Assembly: GCF_026712245.1 (NCBI RefSeq)
Contig: NZ_JAPPUY010000001.1
Coordinates: forward strand, 434,001 to 498,000
Source: Roseateles hydrophilus
GTDB lineage: Bacteria > Pseudomonadota > Gammaproteobacteria > Burkholderiales > Burkholderiaceae_C
DNA: 64,000 bases
Reading direction: 5' to 3'
The translations under genes and the position numbers were made by a program. This document shows positions 1 through 10,473 of the stretch, piece after piece (within the stretch, counting starts at the first letter, position 1; the number at the start of each line of letters is the position of its first letter). A model generated the notes under the pieces. It was not told where the DNA came from and made no database searches. It worked only from the letters and a program-made list of their open reading frames with translations.

Positions 1-461
1 ATCGAGCGGGCTGGGTGGTTCTCGGGGTTGTTGAGCGCCGAGAAGCTGTACCAGTCGGTCTCGATCTCGGGGCCGTCGGCCACGTCGAAACCCATCGACG
101 AGAAGATGGCTTCGATGCGCTCCATGGCGCGGGTGATGGGGTGCAGGCCGCCGGTGCCGCGCTGGCGGCCGGGCAGGGTGACGTCCAGGGCTTCGGCCTT
201 GAGTTGCTTCTCCAACTCGGCAGCGGCCAGCGCGTCACGACGGGCGGTGAGGGCGGCCTCGATGGCGACCTTGGTCTGGTTGATCTCGGCGCCGCGGGTC
301 TTCTTTTCCTCGATGCTCAGGGCGCCCAGGCCCTTCATCAGTTCGGTCACACGGCCGGACTTGCCCAGGTAGCGCGCCTTGGCGTTCTCCAGTTCGGCGG
401 GCGTGGGGGCGGCGGCAAAGTCGGCCTGTGCCGCTTGCAGCAAAGCGTCGAGATCAGACAT
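1..461 (-). CDS. pheS: Phenylalanyl-tRNA synthetase alpha subunit, N-terminal part
   Basis: The first 153 codons of the alpha chain of phenylalanyl-tRNA synthetase, which charges tRNA-Phe; the 3' part and presumably pheT lie beyond the left edge. The protein opens [20 protein letters not shown], followed by the helical tRNA-binding arm and then the region with [19 protein letters not shown] that leads into the class II catalytic core. It is the last visible gene of the thrS-infC-rpmI-rplT-pheS series, the usual proteobacterial order. The ATG at 461 is the only good start, 21 bases past a terminator-like hairpin. No pheM-type phenylalanine leader peptide is visible between rplT and pheS. Confidence 0.95.
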
Positions 462-481
462 TCGGGAATTCGGAATGAGAA

Positions 482-507
482 AGGGCCGACCCTGGTGGGC
501 CGGCCCT
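482..507 (-). terminator. Hairpin between rplT and pheS, terminator or attenuator
   Basis: Read on the minus strand, AGGGCCG and CGGCCCT form a 7-bp stem, extended inside by CCC/GGG around an ACCA loop, and followed directly by TTTCTCATT. The position, 42 bases after the rplT stop and 21 before the pheS start, suggests it lowers readthrough from the ribosomal protein genes into pheS. Function is inferred from structure only. Confidence 0.6.
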
Positions 508-548
508 CAAAAGTTGCGGGCTCCAGCTCGCGCCGGAGCAGTTCGCAA

Positions 549-905
549 TCAGGCGAGCGCGGCCTTCACCTTGGCGAAGATGCTGGCGAAACCAGCCGGG
601 TCGTTGACGGCCAGATCGGCGAGGACCTTGCGGTCGATCTCGATCTGGGCCTTCTTCAGACCCGCCACGAACTTGCTGTAGGACAGGCCCAGGCCACGCG
701 AGGCGGCGTTGATACGGGCGATCCACAGCTGACGGAAGACGCGCTTCTTGGTGCGGCGGTCACGGTAGGCGTATTGGCCCGCCTTCATCACCGCCTGCTT
801 GGCGATGCGGAAAACGTTCTTACGACGACCGCGGAAGCCCTTGGCCAGGGCCAGGACCTTCTTGTGACGGGCGCGAGCGGTAACACCACGTTTGACGCGA
901 GGCAT
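549..905 (-). CDS. rplT: 50S ribosomal protein L20
   Basis: L20, 118 residues, the usual length. It binds 23S rRNA early in large-subunit assembly. The sequence starts [20 protein letters not shown] and carries the long basic N-terminal helix followed by the globular domain with [20 protein letters not shown]. In E. coli L20 represses translation of rpmI-rplT by binding the messenger; the same control is possible here but no specific site was identified. It lies 26 bases after rpmI. Confidence 0.98.
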
Positions 906-931
906 ATGTTTCTCCTTCTAGTCTTGGTGGA

Positions 932-1135
932 TTACAGGCCGGCGAAAGGCAACATTTGAGCCATGTGGCCCATGTTGGTTTCGTGCACGTTCACAGCGCC
1001 GCGCAGCTGACGCTTGTTCTTCGTGGTCTTCTTGGTCAGGATGTGGCGCTTGAACGCCTGACCGCGCTTGACGGTGCCACCCGGACGAACGCGAAAACGC
1101 TTCTTCGCGCTGCTCTTGGTCTTCATCTTGGGCAT
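932..1135 (-). CDS. rpmI: 50S ribosomal protein L35
   Basis: L35, 67 residues, very basic, beginning [20 protein letters not shown], which is the family signature. It is a late-assembling component of the large ribosomal subunit. It lies between infC and rplT in the conserved operon order. A ribosome-binding AAAAGGAG stretch lies just upstream of the ATG. Confidence 0.98.
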
Positions 1136-1212
1136 GTGAATGCTCCTTTTAAGTGTGTCCCTGGGGCGATGCCGGTGAACCCGACATGCTTGTTGGCCTC
1201 AGGAGACTTGTG

Positions 1213-1240
1213 AACCGGCAGGCGACCAAACCTGCCGGTT
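1213..1240 (-). terminator. Perfect 10-bp hairpin between infC and rpmI
   Basis: AACCGGCAGG and CCTGCCGGTT form a perfect 10-bp stem with an 8-base loop, starting 14 bases after the infC stop codon. No U tract follows on the minus strand, so it may be an mRNA-stabilising or processing structure rather than a true terminator. Confidence 0.5.
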
Positions 1241-1254
1241 GAACTCTGTCGATC

Positions 1255-1800
1255 TCAGCGCTTCTTGGGCGCCAGGACCATGATCATCTGCCGACCTTCG
1301 AGCTTCGGCATGTTCTCGACCACCGCCACATCAGCCAGCTCGTCGCGAATCCGCTCCAGCAGGCGCATGCCGATGTCCTGGTGCGTGATTTCGCGGCCCC
1401 GGTAGCGCAGCGTGACCTTGCCCTTGTCACCGTCTTCAGCGATGAAGCGGCGCAAGTTGCGCATCTTGATCTGGTAGTCACCTTCGTCCGTGCCCGGGCG
1501 GAACTTGACTTCCTTGATCTCGATGATCTTTTGCTTGGCCTTGGCTTCAGCGGCGCGCTTTTGTTCCTGGTACTTGAACTTGCCGTAGTCCATCAGCCGG
1601 CAGACCGGCGGATTGGCGGTGGCAGAGATCTCGACCAGGTCCACGTCCAGGTCGCCCGCCATGCGCAGGGCTTCCTGGATGCTGACGATCCCGATGGGTT
1701 CATTCTCGGGGCCGTTCAGACGGACTTCGGGAGCCATGATTTCGCGGTTCAGGCGGTGCTTGCGCTCCGGAATCGCGCGACGGTCGGCAAACGTAGCGAT
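1255..1800 (-). CDS. infC: Translation initiation factor IF-3 with non-AUG start
   Basis: IF-3 binds the 30S subunit, prevents premature joining and checks the initiator codon-anticodon pair. The C-terminal domain contains [20 protein letters not shown] and ends with [13 protein letters not shown]. The first in-frame ATG (at 1737) would cut off the conserved N-terminal segment. Reading further upstream in frame gives [19 protein letters not shown], matching the IF-3 N-domain, back to an ATC codon at 1800-1798 with AAAGG eight bases before it. Starting there gives 181 residues, the normal size. IF-3 genes are known to use AUU-type starts for self-regulation, because IF-3 discriminates against them, so ATC is the preferred call. 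It follows thrS by 71 bases. Confidence 0.93.
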
Positions 1801-1818
1801 GGTGTGGACCTTTCAACA

Positions 1819-1839
1819 AGGCCCCAAGGCGAGGGGCCT
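1819..1839 (-). promoter_or_regulatory. 7-bp hairpin in the thrS-infC gap
   Basis: AGGCCCC and GGGGCCT form a perfect stem around a 7-base loop, ending about 18 bases before the infC ATC start. On the minus strand it is followed by TGTTGAAAGG, which overlaps the approach to the infC ribosome-binding site. It could be a weak terminator for thrS or a translational control structure for infC. Only the structure is seen. Confidence 0.4.
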
Positions 1840-1871
1840 CAAACAAAACAAAGCGCGCCCGGACGGCTCTT

Positions 1872-3779
1872 TCAGACCTTGTTGGTGATGTCTGCGGAGA
1901 TCCTGTCGAGGAAGTCCTGCAGGGGCATCACGCCGAGATCCTGGTTGCCACGGGCGCGTACCGCAACGCTGCCATTCGCCTTTTCCTTGTCACCCACGAC
2001 GAGGATGTACGGCAGCTTTTGCATGGAATGCTGGCGGATTTTATAGGTGATCTTCTCGTTGCGCAAATCGGCTGAGGCCCTAAGCCCTTGTTTTTGCAGC
2101 GATTTCACAATTTCCGCGACGTAATCGGCCTGCGCATCCGTAATGTTGGCGACGACAACCTGCGTCGGCGCCAGCCACGTGGGCAGTGCGCCGGCGTGTT
2201 GTTCGATCAGGATGCCGATGAATCGCTCCAGGCTGCCGACGATGGCGCGGTGCAGCATCACGGGGTTCTTGTGCTGGCCGTCTTCATCCACGAACTCGGC
2301 GCCGAGGCGGCCGGGCATGGAGAAGTCGACCTGCATCGTGCCGCACTGCCACTGGCGGCCCAGCGCGTCTTTCAGCGTGTACTCGATCTTGGGGCCGTAG
2401 AAGGCGCCGTCGCCCGGGGCGATGACGAAGTCCACGCCCGAGGCGCGCAGGCTTTCCATCAGCGCGTGCTCGGCCTTGTCCCAGATCTCGTCGGAGCCGA
2501 TGCGGGCATCCGGCCGCGTGGCGACCTTGTAGATGATGTCCGTGAAGCCGAAGTCTTGGTAGACCTTCTGCAGCAGCGCCGTGTAGGCCACGCACTCGGG
2601 CAGGATCTGATCTTCCGTGCAGAAGATGTGGCCGTCGTCTTGCGTGAAGCCGCGCACGCGCATGATGCCGTGCAGGCCGCCGGTGGGCTCGTTGCGGTGG
2701 CACTGGCCGAACTCGCCGAAGCGCAGCGGCAGGTCGCGGTAGCTCTTCACGCCGTGCTTGAAGATCAGGATGTGACCGGGGCAGTTCATCGGCTTGAGCG
2801 CGTAGTCGCGCTTTTCCGACTCGGTCGTGAACATGTTGTCGCGGTACTTGTCCCAGTGGCCCGTGGCTTCCCACAGCGTCTTGTCGAGCAGCTGCGGGCC
2901 CTTGACCTCCTGGTAGCCGTTGTCGCGGTAGACGCGGCGCATGTACTGCTCGACCTCCTGCCACACCGTCCAGCCCTTGGGGTGCCAGAACACGACGCCG
3001 GGGGCGTGCTCGTCGATGTGGAAGAGGTCCAGCTCCTTGCCGAGCTTGCGGTGGTCGCGCTTCTCGGCTTCCTCCAGCATCGTCAGGTACTTCTGCAGGT
3101 CGTCCTTCGTCGCCCAGGCTGTGCCGTAGACGCGCTGCAGCATCTCGTTGCGGTGGTCGCCGCGCCAGTAGGCACCGGCGACCTTCATCAGCTTGAAGTG
3201 CTTGAGCTTGCCCGTGCTGGGCACGTGCGGGCCGCGGCAGAGGTCTTCGAACTTGCCTTCGGCGTACAGCGACACATCCTGGTCGGCCGGGATGCTGCCG
3301 ATGATCTCGGCCTTGTAGTTCTCGCCCAGGGCCTTGAAGTGGGCCACGGCTTCGTCGCGCGGCAGCACGCGGCGCACGACCTTCTCGTCCTTCTTGGCCA
3401 GTTCGGTCATCTTGGACTCGATGGCGGCCAGGTCGTCCGGCGTGAAGGGGCGTTTGTACGAGAAGTCGTAGTAAAAGCCGTGCTCGATGACCGGGCCGAT
3501 GGTGACCTGGGCGTCGGGGTAGAGCTCCTTGACGGCGTAGGCCAGTAGGTGGGCTGTGGAGTGGCGGATGAGTTCCAGGCCGTCTTCGTCCTTGTCGGTG
3601 ACGATGGACAGCTGAACGTCGCGGTCGATGACGTGGCTCAGGTCAACGACCTTGCCGTCGACCTTGCCGCCTAGCGCGGCCTTGGCCAGGCCGGCGCCGA
3701 TGCTGGCGGCCACATCGCCCACCGTCAGCGCGGCGGGGTACTCACGGCGAGAGCCGTCGGGGAGTTGAATCGAGATCAT
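1872..3779 (-). CDS. thrS: Threonyl-tRNA synthetase
   Basis: ThrRS charges tRNA-Thr in the cytoplasm. At 635 residues it is full length. The order is an N-terminal TGS domain ([20 protein letters not shown]), the editing domain with [16 protein letters not shown] and the zinc-type [15 protein letters not shown] segment, the class II catalytic core ([38 protein letters not shown]), and the anticodon-binding domain at the C-terminus ([19 protein letters not shown]). GGAG lies six bases before the ATG. It heads the infC-rpmI-rplT-pheS operon. Its leader region contains a threonine-rich peptide and an intrinsic terminator, which suggests control by threonine attenuation. Confidence 0.98.
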
Positions 3780-3810
3780 GGGGTGCTCCGTTCGTGGGGC
3801 AGAAATGAAA

Positions 3811-3833
3811 AAGCGCGGCCACTTGCCGCGCTT
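3811..3833 (-). terminator. Intrinsic terminator (attenuator) in the thrS leader
   Basis: On the minus strand AAGCGCGG, a 7-base loop CAAGTGG and CCGCGCTT form a perfect 8-bp stem, continued by TTTCATTT so that five T residues follow the stem. It lies 31 bases before the thrS start and 40 bases after the leader-peptide stop codon. The 5' arm (with 3825-3830) can instead pair with 3865-3870 (GCCGCG with CGCGGC), which would prevent the terminator, as in classical attenuators. Confidence 0.82.
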
Positions 3834-3873
3834 GGTTTCTTGCCCGAAGGCAGGCGTGACGAGCCGCGGCCGA

Positions 3874-3912
3874 CTAGGTACCGGTGAAGGTGGTCGTAGT
3901 TCGCGGTGTCAT
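3874..3912 (-). CDS. Threonine-rich leader peptide of thrS ([12 protein letters not shown])
   Basis: A 12-codon reading frame in the thrS leader: ATG ACA CCG CGA ACT ACG ACC ACC TTC ACC GGT ACC TAG. Seven of 12 residues are threonine and all four threonine codons are used. AAAGG lies ten bases upstream. Downstream come a UUCG-capped hairpin (3841-3852) and the intrinsic terminator. The CCGCG of codons 3-4 (3902-3906) can pair with 3864-3868, which in turn overlaps the antiterminator strand 3865-3870. A ribosome stalled on the threonine run would mask the first segment and favour antitermination. The frame is seen directly; the regulatory role is inferred from the architecture of amino-acid operon leaders such as thrL. 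Confidence 0.82.
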
Positions 3913-3958
3913 AACCAGGGTGCCTTTCTCGCTCTTGTGAGGGGAGGGAATCCAAATT

Positions 3959-5056
3959 CTAAAGGCTCATGGCCTGGACGTTGCCTTGGCGCGTGAGCGC
4001 GGCGAATTCTTCGGCCAGGCGGTGGCTGGACGCCACGGCCTCGCGCCAGCGCCGGCGGCGTTCGTCGGCGTCCAGGTGGATGAAGTCGTTGCGGTCCGGC
4101 AGCTTGCCGCCGGGCAGGCTGGCGATCCACTCGGGCGACGGGCACAGCAGCACGACGTTGTCCAGGAAGGCGGTGGCGCGATGGCGGTGCTTGAGTGCCT
4201 TGTCCAGCCAGCCGGGCACCACCTGGCGCTGGAAGTGCGGGTAGAGCACCAGGGGCGCGCCGCTGGACTGCAGGGCGCGGTAGTCGAGGTGCAGGTGGTA
4301 GTCGGTGATGCCGCCGTCCCAGTAGGCGCCGCGCGGTGCGCCGGGCAGGTCGTGCTGGGCCTGCAGCCAGAACGGGATGGAGCAGCTCGCCAGCAGCGCG
4401 CCACGCAGGTTGGTGCGCGACAGGTGCACCTCGCGCGTCGTGAAGTCGTTGAGCTTCAGCGGCAGGCGGTCGCGGGCGTCGGAGAAGATGACGCGCTCCA
4501 GGAAGCGCCCCAGCAGCGGACGTGACACCGCATTGGCCGCAAATGCGCCCAGGTAGCCCAGCGGCGTGCGCACTCGACCTTCTCGCGCCAGCAGGCCCAG
4601 GCCCTTGTTCTGGCCGCGCGACGTGACGATGTGCAGCCGATAGCGTGGATGGGCCAGCACCTCGGCCTCGCGGCCTTCGAAGATGTCGGCCAGGATCTCG
4701 CCGAAGCGCCGGCTGACACCCTCGGGGCGCGGTCGCTTCTCCCCCGGCAGTACGTCGTACTGCTGCGTCACGTAGGCCTCGGCCATCGTGTTGAACGCAT
4801 CGGCCACGTCGCGGTGGGCGAGGGCTGCGGTGGCCATGCGCCAAGCGCCGATGCTGGCGCCGACCAGGTGCACGGGCTGGCGGCTTTGCGGCAGCCAGTC
4901 GCCGAAGATGAAGCGATCCAGGCCGTTGAGGATCAGACCCTTGGGGCCACCGGCGGCAGCCGGGATCAGGCCGATGTCGTCAGGACGCAGGCCACGCTCG
5001 GCCAGCCGCGTGCGGGCGGTGCGACCGGCAAATACTTGGAGGGCAGGAACAGTCAT
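3959..5056 (-). CDS. Patatin-like phospholipase family protein
   Basis: A 365-residue lipid acyl hydrolase of the patatin type. The oxyanion glycine-rich segment is IPAAAGGPKGL (about residues 31-41), the nucleophile serine is Ser68 in GASIGAWR (the GxSxG elbow), and the dyad aspartate is Asp247 in YWDGGITDYH. No signal peptide is evident, so it is probably cytoplasmic or membrane-peripheral. The substrate is unknown. It lies upstream of the thrS leader on the same strand with only 46 bases between, so the thrS promoter may overlap its 3' end. Confidence 0.85.
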   Translation of the reverse strand: MTVPALQVFAGRTARTRLAERGLRPDDIGLIPAAAGGPKGLILNGLDRFIFGDWLPQSRQPVHLVGASIGAWRMATAALAHRDVADAFNTMAEAYVTQQYDVLPGEKRPRPEGVSRRFGEILADIFEGREAEVLAHPRYRLHIVTSRGQNKGLGLLAREGRVRTPLGYLGAFAANAVSRPLLGRFLERVIFSDARDRLPLKLNDFTTREVHLSRTNLRGALLASCSIPFWLQAQHDLPGAPRGAYWDGGITDYHLHLDYRALQSSGAPLVLYPHFQRQVVPGWLDKALKHRHRATAFLDNVVLLCPSPEWIASLPGGKLPDRNDFIHLDADERRRRWREAVASSHRLAEEFAALTRQGNVQAMSL

Positions 5057-5117
5057 CGCCCGACAAGATAGCCGACACCGGCCGCGCGGCGTGACGCGGC
5101 CGGGACGGCGAGTTGCG

Positions 5118-7364
5118 TCAGAACTTGTGTTCCCAGTTCACCGACCACCAAGGCACCGGCTCGCGCTGGTTCAGGTTGTAGTCCGGCGTGCCGACGATGA
5201 CGACGCGCGTGCCCTGCTTGGGCTGGAACAGGCCGTTGACGCTGACGCGCACGCTGTCCTGCTTGCTGACCTGCATGGCGGCGAAGGCGTCCAGCGAGCG
5301 CGAGGCCAGCGAGGTCTGGCTTTGCAGCACGCTCTGGCGCACGTCAAACTCGGGTGCGATCTGGGCGCTGAAGCCCATGTTGATCGGCAGGCTCTTGAGC
5401 CGGTAGTCGGCGCCGAAGTTGAACTGCCAGGGCTGCTGGCCCTCCAGGCGGTTGTCGGGGCCGGGGATGTCGCCGACGGAGGATCGGTACAGGTTCAGCG
5501 AGGCGCGCAGGTTCAGCGCGGTGCTGGGCTCGAACAGGCTCGGGAACAGCTCGGCGGCGCGGCCCTTGACCTCCAGCTCCAGGCCTTGCGTCGTGGCCTT
5601 GCTGAGGTTGATCTGCGTGATGACGTAGCGCTGCGTGTCGGCATAGGGCACCGTCATCAGGCGGGGCTTGTCGGTGCGGATCAGATTGGTGATGCGGCGG
5701 TGGAACACGCCCACCGACACCAGGCCGCCTGCCGGCAGGTATTTCTCAAAGGCCACGTCCAGGCCGGTGGCCAGCTCCGGCTTCAGCAGCGGATTGCCCA
5801 TGCGGTCCGGGGCGAGCTCGGTGTTGATGCGCGCATTCGGGCCGCGCACTTCATAGTCGGTGTTGATGGTTGGGCGGGCAATCAGCTGCTGGATGTCCGC
5901 CGCCTTGTAGCTGCGGGTCAGGCTGGCGCGCACGAGGTCGCGGCCCTTGGGGTCGGGCTTGAAGTTCAGGTGCAGCAGCGGTGTCGTGACCTTGCTGGTG
6001 CTGGTGAACTGGCTGCCATCCCCCTCGCTGGCCATCTTGATCTGCTCGTGGCGCACGCCGGCGTAGGCGGACCACTGCTTGTTGATCTCCCACTCGTCCT
6101 GCAGGTAGAAGGCCGAGCGGGTGATGGTCGCGTTGAAGGGCTGGCCTTCGACGCCCGTCAGCAGGTCTTCCAACTGCGGGTTGGTCTTGCGGTAGTCGAT
6201 CTGCTGCGTGCGGCGGCGTTCGTCGCGGGTGCGGCGCTCCAACTCGGCGCCGGTCGTGATGGTGTGGGCGTCACCTGCGTACTGGCTGTACTTGCCGGAC
6301 AGGCTGGTGTTGCGGTTGCTGTTGTCGCCCGACGTGAAGCGGTCGATGGCTTGCGAGCCGTCCTTGTTGCGGCCGAAGAAGTCGAAGTCGAAGTTCGCGC
6401 CGCCGCTGCCGGTGCCGGCGCGCAGTTCGATGCGACGGTCCTCACCGAAACGGTTGTTGTATTGCAGGTTGACGCGGTTGGCCGAGAAGGTGCCGCGGTT
6501 GCGCGTGGTGTCCACCAGGCTCTGCGGCAGCACGCTGCTGGCGCCCGAGAACAGCACGGTGGTGGTGTTCTCGCCCTCGTTGCGGAAGCGGTTCTGCACG
6601 AAGAAGCCTTGCAGCGTCAGCGTCTCGTCGTCGTCGAGCTTCCAGTTCAGGCGCGGCGAGATGTTGAAGCCGCGACCGAAGGCGCGGTCGCGCCCGACAT
6701 TGCTCATGCCGGTCACGCCCTTGTCGCGCACGCGGTCGCCTTCGGTCTCGTTGACGAAGTTCCACTGGTAGACCGAGATCGGCAGCACGAAGCCCACGCC
6801 GCCGACGACGCGATCGCCGTAGGTGAAGCCGGCATTGATGACCGGCTTCTCGCTCGCGTAGGCCAGGCCCAGGCGCAGATCCTTCTGCACGACGCGCGGC
6901 GCGTCCTTCAGGATGATGTTCAGCGTGCCGGCGATGGCCTGGGCGCTCTGGTCCGCCGTGGGCGCCTTGGTGACTTCCAGGCGCTCGACCTGCGCCGGGT
7001 TCAGGTTGTCCAGGCTGAAGCCCGGAGGCGCCGGCTCGCCGTTGACAAGGATCTGCGTGTAGGCGCCGCCCAGGCCGCGCATGCGCAGCTGGCCGCCGGA
7101 GACGTTGATGCCCGGCAGGCGCTTGAGCACATCGGAAAGCTGCGTGTCGCCGTACTTGTCCAGCTCCTCGCGGCCGTACAGCTGCTTGGCCACGGGCTCG
7201 CGGCGGCGCAGGTCGGTGTCGGTCTGCGTGCGCGAGACAGACACGCGCTCCAGTTGCTGGTTGCCGGGTGTCGGCGACGTGTTGTTCGCGCGGTCGACTT
7301 CCTGCTGAGCCAGAACCAGGGCGGGACTGAGCAGGAGCAGCAGGGCGAGGGCAGGGGTTTTCAA
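5118..7364 (-). CDS. TonB-dependent outer-membrane receptor
   Basis: A 748-residue outer-membrane receptor. The signal peptide is [20 protein letters not shown]. The plug domain follows ([40 protein letters not shown]), then a beta-barrel of about 550 residues ending with SVNWEHKF, the aromatic C-terminus typical of barrels. The likely start is TTG at 7364 with GGAG six bases before it; further upstream the frame loses signal-peptide character. The substrate cannot be read from the sequence: the gene stands alone, with no siderophore or sugar genes touching it. Confidence 0.86.
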
Positions 7365-7515
7365 GCAGGACTCCGTGGATTCGGGAAGGTGCGCACCATA
7401 GCGGGCCCGCCAGCCGGCTGCAGCCGCGCTGCGACCGATTGCCGATTGGCGGGTGTCAGTCGACGACCCGTGGCGCGGGCCGCATCTTGACAGCCCTTCG
7501 TGTCCGTGCCGAAGG

Positions 7516-9843
<2,328 letters not shown>

Positions 9844-9963
9844 GAGGCTCTCGGAAGCGCGAAAAAAGCCGGCGATTTTGCCATGTGGCCCCGCGGGCGA
9901 CCGGGCTTGTCCGGCCCGCTGCCGGCATGGACACTGGCTCGCTCAACCCCGACGGAGAGGCGC

Positions 9964-10473
9964 ATGTTCGACAAACCCCGCGTGCTGGCGTTGTCCAAGC
10001 GATTGATGGATGGCGTCGTCGATGCCGACGAGTTCTACAACGAGCTGACCCTGCTGCTGGCCGAGCAGATGGGCAGCAGCCGCGCGAGTCTGTGGGTCTA
10101 TCCCGACCCCGTGGCACGCGACCGCATCCAGTGCCTGCGGCTGTACGACCGCGACCAGGACAGCTGGAGCCAGGGCGCCGAACTGCGCGAGGCGGACTTC
10201 GGCCCATATTTCGCTGCGATGCGGCGCGACAACCTCATCGTCGCCAGCGAGGCGCGCAGCCACCCGACGACGGACTGCTTCACCAGCGCCTACTTCGAAC
10301 CGCTGGGCATCTATTCGCTGCTGGATGTCGGCATCAACATCGGCGGCCAGCCCTGGGGCCTGTTCTGCTGCGAGAACACGCATGACGTGCTGACCTGGAG
10401 CGACCAGCACGTCGAGTACCTGCGCCAGGTCGGCGCCTTGCTGGGCTTTGCGCTGAAGAAGGCTCAGGGCTGA
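9964..10473 (+). CDS. GAF-domain protein
   Basis: A 169-residue protein made almost entirely of one GAF sensor domain: MFDKPRVLALSKRLMDGVVD at the start, then MGSSRASLWVYPDPVARDRI and GQPWGLFCCENTHDVLTWSD in the core. GAF domains bind small ligands or act as regulatory modules. There is no attached output domain, so its partner is unknown. CGGAGAGG lies close to the ATG. Its 3' end overlaps the convergent flavoprotein gene by ten bases. Confidence 0.8.
   Translation: MFDKPRVLALSKRLMDGVVDADEFYNELTLLLAEQMGSSRASLWVYPDPVARDRIQCLRLYDRDQDSWSQGAELREADFGPYFAAMRRDNLIVASEARSHPTTDCFTSAYFEPLGIYSLLDVGINIGGQPWGLFCCENTHDVLTWSDQHVEYLRQVGALLGFALKKAQG

Follow-up and report, generated by a model that had tools for sequence, protein, structure and literature searches.

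A putative threonine-codon attenuator in front of thrS in Roseateles hydrophilus and related Burkholderiales

Genes and leader features upstream of thrS

The window, by which we mean the whole 64,000-nucleotide stretch of the Roseateles hydrophilus genome that was analyzed, carries near its beginning a thrS gene that is preceded by a short leader (Table 1). The order thrS-infC-rpmI-rplT-pheS on the minus strand, as proposed in the initial annotation, agreed with the protein family models; pheS fell below the cut-off of its model because its protein is truncated by the window edge. The gene upstream of the leader in the window encodes a patatin-like, phospholipase-like protein (Pfam PF01734). 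Within the cluster, between rplT and pheS (540-461, minus strand), a G+C-rich hairpin followed by TTTCTC was noticed by eye. This hairpin was absent from the scanner list and no phenylalanine-rich frame was seen there; judged from its sequence, it is possibly a second terminator or attenuator.

Table 1. Features of the thrS cluster and leader in the window, and of the tRNA gene at two relatives' loci
Feature	Position	Strand	Basis
thrS, threonine--tRNA ligase, the regulated gene	1872..3779	minus	TIGR00418, 729.5 bits (cut-off 383.65)
infC, downstream in likely operon	1255..1737	minus	TIGR00168
rpmI, downstream	932..1135	minus	TIGR00001
rplT, downstream	549..905	minus	TIGR01032
pheS, first part, cut by window edge	3..461	minus	TIGR00468, 93.8 bits (cut-off 237.45)
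Likely -10 hexamer TAGAAT of leader promoter; shares bases with the upstream gene's stop codon	3956..3961	minus	inferred
Shine-Dalgarno of leader frame, GAGAAAGG	3923..3930	minus	read from sequence
Leader peptide frame, 12 codons, followed by stop TAG (3876-3874)	3912-3874	minus	read from sequence, conserved
Segment 1, UGAC (3911-3908) and CCGCG (3906-3902), also codons 1-4	3902..3911	minus	folding
Segment 2, GCCGCGG (3870-3864) and GUCA (3860-3857)	3857..3870	minus	folding; first part ribosome-covered at leader stop
UUCG hairpin nested in predicted antiterminator, not conserved as such	3841..3852	minus	folding
Intrinsic terminator; 5' arm (3833-3825) contains segment 3, 3' arm (3819-3811) is segment 4	3811..3833	minus	scanner and relatives
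tRNA-Val(GAC), locus L149	2344-2420	minus	
tRNA-Val(GAC), locus L156	1202-1278	plus	

The leader frame begins with ATG (3912-3910) and continues with ACA CCG CGA ACT ACG ACC ACC TTC ACC GGT ACC before the stop codon TAG. Direct reading confirmed the earlier description of a 12-residue peptide in which seven residues are threonine and all four threonine codons are used. When all open reading frames of 8 to 30 codons on both strands of the window were counted (1,073, taking every ATG, GTG and TTG start and including nested frames), the thrS leader frame had the highest threonine fraction. At least five threonines were present in 25 of the 1,073, and the thrS leader was the only one of these with a terminator within 110 nt downstream. 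Two of the threonine codons in the leader, ACA at codon 2 and ACT at codon 5, are nevertheless rare in the window, where ACA was counted 5 times and ACT twice among 146 threonine codons of seven genes. Genes for tRNA-Thr with the anticodons GGU, UGU and CGU were present among the 30 of 52 genome tRNA matches listed.

Probable signals for expression of the frame were also found. In 164 of 175 leaders an AAAGG-type motif ended 9-12 nt 5' of the start codon. The scanner reported no sigma-70 promoter above its threshold for the thrS leader in the window, and the sequence TAGAAT (3961-3956) is the likely -10 element of a leader promoter. Among the relatives, 107 of 175 leaders had a TANAAT hexamer between -75 and -25, counted from the leader ATG, and in 69 of those 107 the last such hexamer began at -51 to -48. 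A possible hairpin around the start codon (YGGU-UAUGAC-ACCG) was also seen. Gene annotation likely misses a small leader peptide of this sort.

Conservation of the leader frame and its threonine codons

Sequences upstream of thrS were collected from the same genus, from the family of the window, from a second family and from further families of the order, together with 80 named records, among which the best matches were to Roseateles, Rubrivivax, Methylibium, Polaromonas and similar organisms. The exact start ATGACACCG, encoding MTPRT, was found in all 17 loci examined from the genus, in 77 of 97 family genomes and in 40 of 55 genomes of the second family. Of the 78 named loci that had 200 nt or more of upstream sequence (one of the 78 was mis-cut), 44 likewise contained it, as did 2 of 16 loci of a set with one genome for each other family, one of the two belonging to the second family. 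A looser definition (a frame that starts with ATG or GTG, encodes 7-27 residues with R-T within the first seven and has at least two threonines, the terminator not being required) added four leaders in the family, eight in the second family, six among the named loci and four in the other-family set, where shuffled sequence would be expected to give 3.6, 2.0, 3.6 and 0.8, respectively. With the diverged R-T leaders counted, the second family thus reached 48 of 55 (shuffles, 2.0), and in the family the genomes lacking a leader went from 20 of 97 for the exact form to 16 of 97 for the looser one. When 300 genomes of the order were searched for a 19-mer around the leader start, 13 had one copy each and the others none; all 13 genomes belong to the family of the window or to the second family. 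Apparent leaders outside the order (G473, G506 and G534), which came from a search of 229 genomes of the class with two mismatches allowed, were rejected as chance matches, since a reversed control hit seven genomes.

A terminator was found by the same test in 175 of 176 distinct leaders, the exception being L063. Thus, when relatives were checked for loss of the threonine frame or of the terminator, both were kept in most of them. The expectation that a threonine-rich frame would be conserved was borne out for the MTPRT(T) start; the long threonine run of the window is not general.

Codons 2 and 3 were fixed by the search pattern, and their conservation is therefore by construction. Beyond these positions, codon 4 was arginine in 174 of 175 leaders and codon 5 was threonine in all 175 (ACT in 158, ACG in 17). 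At codon 6, threonine was encoded in 142 of 175 leaders by all four of its codons (ACG 63, ACC 42, ACA 30, ACT 7), and codon 7 was threonine in 104. The synonymous changes at codons 5 and 6 indicate selection on threonine itself and not on the RNA only. By contrast, the invariance of ACACCGCGAAC is over-determined, because coding sequence and segment 1 coincide there. Peptides were 11-16 residues long in 159 of 175 leaders; in the two family sets they contained two to seven threonines, and threonine past codon 6 was frequent yet optional.

Competing RNA pairings predicted in the leader

The intrinsic terminator that had been proposed to follow the leader frame was present, with arms AAGCGCGGC (3833-3825) and GCCGCGCTT (3819-3811) forming nine pairs around a loop at 3824-3820 and with the tail TTTCATTT; it sits 31 nt 5' of the thrS ATG (3779). 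The scanner also listed the palindrome on the plus strand, with a poorer tail (GGTTTCTTGC). Both of the competing pairings in the initial annotation were found as described, CCGCG (3906-3902) with CGCGG (3868-3864) over 5 bp, and GCCGCG (3870-3865) with CGCGGC (3830-3825), the latter being segment 3, over 6 bp. The protector helix between segments 1 and 2 proved larger than first described, with UGAC (3911-3908) adding pairs to GUCA (3860-3857). The UUCG hairpin was present in the window, but at its position the relatives have other hairpins or none, as judged by eye from the alignments.

Folding predicted mutually exclusive protector, antiterminator and terminator helices, as had been suggested. 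In the ribosome-free RNA segment 1 was predicted to pair with segment 2, with a probability of 0.95 in the window; in a generic test against shuffled sequences the corresponding values were 0.66 versus 0.32 in the window's family and 0.41 versus 0.35 in the second family, where the test thus lends helix 1:2 no support. Placing a stalled ribosome at codon 5 or codon 7 led instead to a predicted pairing of GCCGCG with CGCGGC around the UUCG hairpin, and the energy in the window before the 3' arm of the terminator is made was -19.4 kcal/mol in the stalled state versus -11.4 kcal/mol with the ribosome at the stop codon. Duplex energies compared with shuffles gave a weak but consistent signal, the mean z being -1.38 for helix 1:2 and -1.15 for helix 2:3 in the window's family, and 0.07 for helix 1:2 and -1.84 for helix 2:3 in the second family.

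A regulated antiterminator was scored as the probability that the 5' side of the terminator pairs with sequence lying under a ribosome positioned at the stop codon. This measure was chosen after the results of the other measures given below and after the structures had been seen. By construction its value is zero in the stop state, and the control was a shuffled linker. With a stalled ribosome the window scored 0.98 (shuffles, 0.43), and the known attenuators of Escherichia coli scored 1.00 (thrL, stalled at codon 8) and 0.98 (pheM, codon 6). The means in four groups of leaders were 0.70, 0.67, 0.95 and 0.98, compared to 0.35-0.40 for shuffles. Of the 175 leaders, 142 scored 0.5 or more and 33 scored less; 149 lay above the mean of their own shuffles, but only 51 lay above all 20 of them. 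In the family set, which holds nearly one genome per genus and 68 distinct leaders, 48 of the 68 reached at least 0.5 (mean 0.65; shuffles, 0.37), and in the second family 37 of 38 did so (mean 0.95; shuffles, 0.39).

Other measures separated the ribosome states less well. The equilibrium probability of the terminator did so in the second family only, where it went from 0.92 with the ribosome at the stop codon to 0.29 with the ribosome stalled (shuffles, 0.79). In the window's family the means were 0.85 stalled and 0.93 at the stop, the window itself giving 0.94-0.96; the control terminators gave 0.96 throughout for thrL and 0.76-0.96 for pheM. Since the terminator of the window is the stable form in every ribosome state, any switch there must be kinetic, and thrL is alike in this respect. 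A simple measure, the share of the 5' arm that is paired while the 3' arm is still to be synthesized, indicated no switching in the window (0.82 stalled versus 0.80 at the stop), whereas in the controls it dropped from 0.75 to 0.01 for thrL and from 0.69 to 0.08 for pheM. The drop is missing in the window because the arm finds other, weaker partners in the stop state.

Across the relatives, segment 1 and the terminator were retained and segment 2 varied by group. Three designs were recognized: A2, around the window, with GGCCGCGGC as segment 2; A3, of the Acidovorax/Comamonas type, with GUUCGCGC; and A1, in the second family, in which segment 2 is CUAGUC, including the stop codon, together with a U-rich arm. 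The alternative pairings persisted, rebuilt with different sequences in different groups. Covariation was counted on hand-chosen alignments of the three designs. In A1, 87.9% of the antiterminator cells were paired (98.6% in the outer helix and 78.8% in the inner one) and the antiterminator covaried, with 22 cells changed on both sides versus 12.2 in shuffles; the terminator was 97.1% paired and showed weaker covariation, with one pair changed on both sides. The A3 alignment was paired at 92.3% for helix 1:2, 93.9% for helix 2:3 and 94.0% for the terminator, and A2 at 85.8% (45 relatives), 93.6% and 96.5%, respectively, each with three doubly changed terminator pairs. Sliding the A3 terminator by one column gave 9 doubly changed cells versus 8, but only 39% of the cells then paired.

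Helices 1:2 and 2:3 of A2 and A3 showed no covariation beyond that of shuffles (one cell in helix 2:3 of A3), since segment 1 does not vary and segment 3 hardly does; the sequences nonetheless argue for both helices by a complementarity far above that of slid versions. The anticipated compensating changes were thus found in the terminators and in the antiterminator of the second family and not in helices 1:2 and 2:3 of the window's own family. One further helix emerged in A3, a hairpin with the leader stop codon in its loop (L019 is an example), which was 80.8% paired, with five of six pairs doubly changed. It had 16 further pair types versus 9.7 in shuffles, and its pair types and covariation score were exceeded by 0 and 1 of 500 shuffles, respectively; doubly changed cells were not in excess (10 versus 8.7). 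A smaller stop-codon hairpin, CGAC-GCUA-GUCG, was noticed by eye in the second family. In locus L078, which is of the leaderless Limnohabitans type, the terminator GCACGGC..GCCGTGC appeared by eye to be a compensated change.

Interpretation of the thrS leader as a probable attenuator

It is established here that a short frame precedes thrS, that it is conserved and keeps its threonine codons, that the helices are complementary and that some of them covary. The conservation of frame and terminator, the synonymous threonine codons and the rebuilt pairings support the attenuator reading first given to the locus, and we consider it highly probable (roughly 0.87) that the thrS leader is a classical ribosome-mediated transcription attenuator that senses the charging of tRNA-Thr. 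Several of the elements by which leader-peptide attenuators are recognized were found: a frame with its own start codon and apparent Shine-Dalgarno sequence upstream of thrS; control codons for threonine that are selectively kept (codons 5 and 6); an intrinsic terminator between frame and gene; and, in the folding predictions for 142 of 175 leaders, an exclusive antiterminator whose formation would be blocked once a ribosome sits at the stop codon.

From sequence and folding we infer the following course of events, including the transcription start, the stalling, the termination and the size and sign of the response. RNA polymerase would start about 40 nt upstream of the leader and a ribosome would begin to translate MTPRTT. 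When threonyl-tRNA is scarce, the ribosome would halt at threonine codons 2, 5, 6 and those following and cover segment 1, such that segment 2, just past the stop codon, could pair with the 5' arm of the terminator and thrS would be transcribed. When threonyl-tRNA is plentiful, the ribosome would reach the stop codon and cover segment 2, and the terminator would form; it would also form when there is no translation, segments 1 and 2 then pairing with each other. The control may extend into infC-rpmI-rplT-pheS and, unless internal promoters uncouple these genes, could make the supply of ribosomal proteins and of an initiation factor depend on threonine charging in two families.

Attenuators of this type precede the trp, his, leu, ilv and thr operons of E. 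coli. Closest in anatomy is pheM-pheST of E. coli, where a short frame rich in cognate codons, with its stop next to segment 2, likewise precedes a synthetase gene, and where antiterminator and terminator are exclusive with the terminator as the stable form, as computed for the thrS leader. That system belongs to the same thrS-infC-rpmI-rplT-pheST cluster but is placed before pheS, and it senses another amino acid and serves another gene. The thrL leader of E. coli shares the threonine codons as sensor and the attenuator anatomy; it controls biosynthesis (thrABC), whereas the leader studied here precedes thrS, and the latter gave no match at E ≤5 to the Rfam family Thr_leader (RF00506). Indeed, no leader family of Rfam scored above threshold in the window or in the relatives' loci searched; the Leu_leader model reached 25 bits on L173 (threshold 50; E, 0.19). 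HPnc0260, below threshold on loci of the second family, was set aside because it overlaps the upstream tRNA gene on the opposite strand, the match at L149 being antisense to the tRNA.

The initial annotation regarded a leader peptide in front of thrS as a solution different from that of E. coli. Threonine leader peptides at this gene have a precedent: a thrL-thrS pair is listed for Streptomyces lividans, with a leader peptide (MKRVRPFLETTPGFVPAR) containing two threonines and a proposed threonine dependence (PMC8079986). The S. lividans leader, in another phylum and with another peptide, has a leaderless start and a hairpin without a uridine-rich terminator tail (PMC8079986), whereas the Burkholderiales element has an apparent Shine-Dalgarno sequence, a terminator and a putative antiterminator. 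No report of a thrS leader peptide in Burkholderiales was found in the open PMC papers searched, although Lopatovskaya et al. (2010) may predict one. Very likely, judging from the sequences compared, two families here share, by conservation, a long-known type of switch in front of a gene that is under another kind of control in E. coli. If so, one synthetase gene would have two unrelated feedback solutions within the proteobacteria, and the approximately 175 natural variants, with three antiterminator designs and one fixed leader start, would offer material for attenuator design.

Control of thrS by a translational operator that is bound by ThrRS is the known case, established in E. coli. That operator and the leader described here act on the same gene and both would feed back on threonylation capacity, the former through recognition of RNA by protein at the level of translation, the latter, as we read it, through ribosome position at the level of transcription. 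We considered the possibility that ThrRS binds a hairpin mimicking the anticodon arm of tRNA-Thr in Burkholderiales as well, the short frame being incidental. The window does contain CGU within CUCGUCA (3863-3857), and self-regulation by ThrRS in E. coli is mentioned in the literature (PMC2965389). However, the GUCA stretch is accounted for by its pairing with UGAC of the leader start, in part of the genus an A precedes the CGU, and inspection of the three alignments revealed no CGU loop common to all of them, the motif being unseen by eye in the other two. Moreover, an operator would need neither a threonine frame kept through synonymous changes nor a terminator in 175 of 176 leaders, and we regard this explanation as improbable.

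Slightly less probable is that an arrest peptide or the structure of the start region is the main determinant, with threonine supply secondary. MTPRT is better kept than the remaining peptide (codons 2 and 3 by construction), the start codon lies at the edge of helix 1:2 and some leaders are down to two threonines; still, threonine makes up 36% of codons 6-11 in the two family sets, and the conservation of codons 1-4 is equally explained by their role as segment 1. There is even less to favor a terminator of the upstream unit (the phospholipase-like gene here, tRNA-Val elsewhere) combined with a chance frame, even though inspection by eye of some further families of the order showed, after tRNA-Val and before thrS, a terminator-like hairpin without a recognizable leader (L026 and L030). 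For 140 of the 167 leaders with enough sequence for the comparison, tblastn (E ≤1e-5) gave no match to the window's upstream gene immediately before the leader, and yet the frame is kept, which indicates that the element travels with thrS and not with that gene; the leader also has its own Shine-Dalgarno sequence and likely -10 element and is the most threonine-rich of the short frames counted. A T-box, which controls thrS in Firmicutes, or another riboswitch sensing tRNA or a metabolite is highly improbable, as Rfam families (Thr_leader, T-box and others) gave no match at E ≤5 in window positions 1-10000 and unrelated low scores only at E ≤10 in 3760-4010, only tRNA genes reached a gathering score at 20 loci of relatives, and the leader is probably too short for a T-box.

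Loci without the attenuator leader were drawn from the family and named sets. In 29 of 42 loci that lacked the exact start or four near variants of it, a hairpin with a T-run was present in the last 120 bases before thrS (28 of 40 after removal of one mis-cut and one repeated locus), and in some of these the hairpin was not of the thrS type (L050 and L087). In nine Limnohabitans-type leaderless loci (L047, L054, L065, L066, L074, L079, L084, L088 and L209) the terminator was seen 15-26 nt before the start codon and, within the last 120 bases, a TANAAT hexamer began 69-84 nt before the thrS start codon; some 20 nt separate the likely start site from the beginning of the terminator there. It is conceivable, if doubtful, that the thrS terminator is a platform served by different sensors, namely the MTPRT leader in its three segment-2 designs and a decision made without a ribosome at the Limnohabitans-type loci.

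At a Polaromonas locus (L080), ATA stands in place of the leader start codon, yet the terminator and much of the leader are still present, which suggests recent loss of the leader. A tRNA-Val(GAC) gene was seen upstream of thrS and its leader in seven loci checked (L149, L156, L153, L112, L172, L105 and L028), and the leader may be cotranscribed with it there. In Ralstonia (L105, L111 and L113), a related frame, MIQAPRTTTASERQ or MIRAPRTTTASERQ, was found at a greater distance from thrS than in other loci (about 290 nt in L105 and L113), with a terminator-like hairpin visible by eye between the two.
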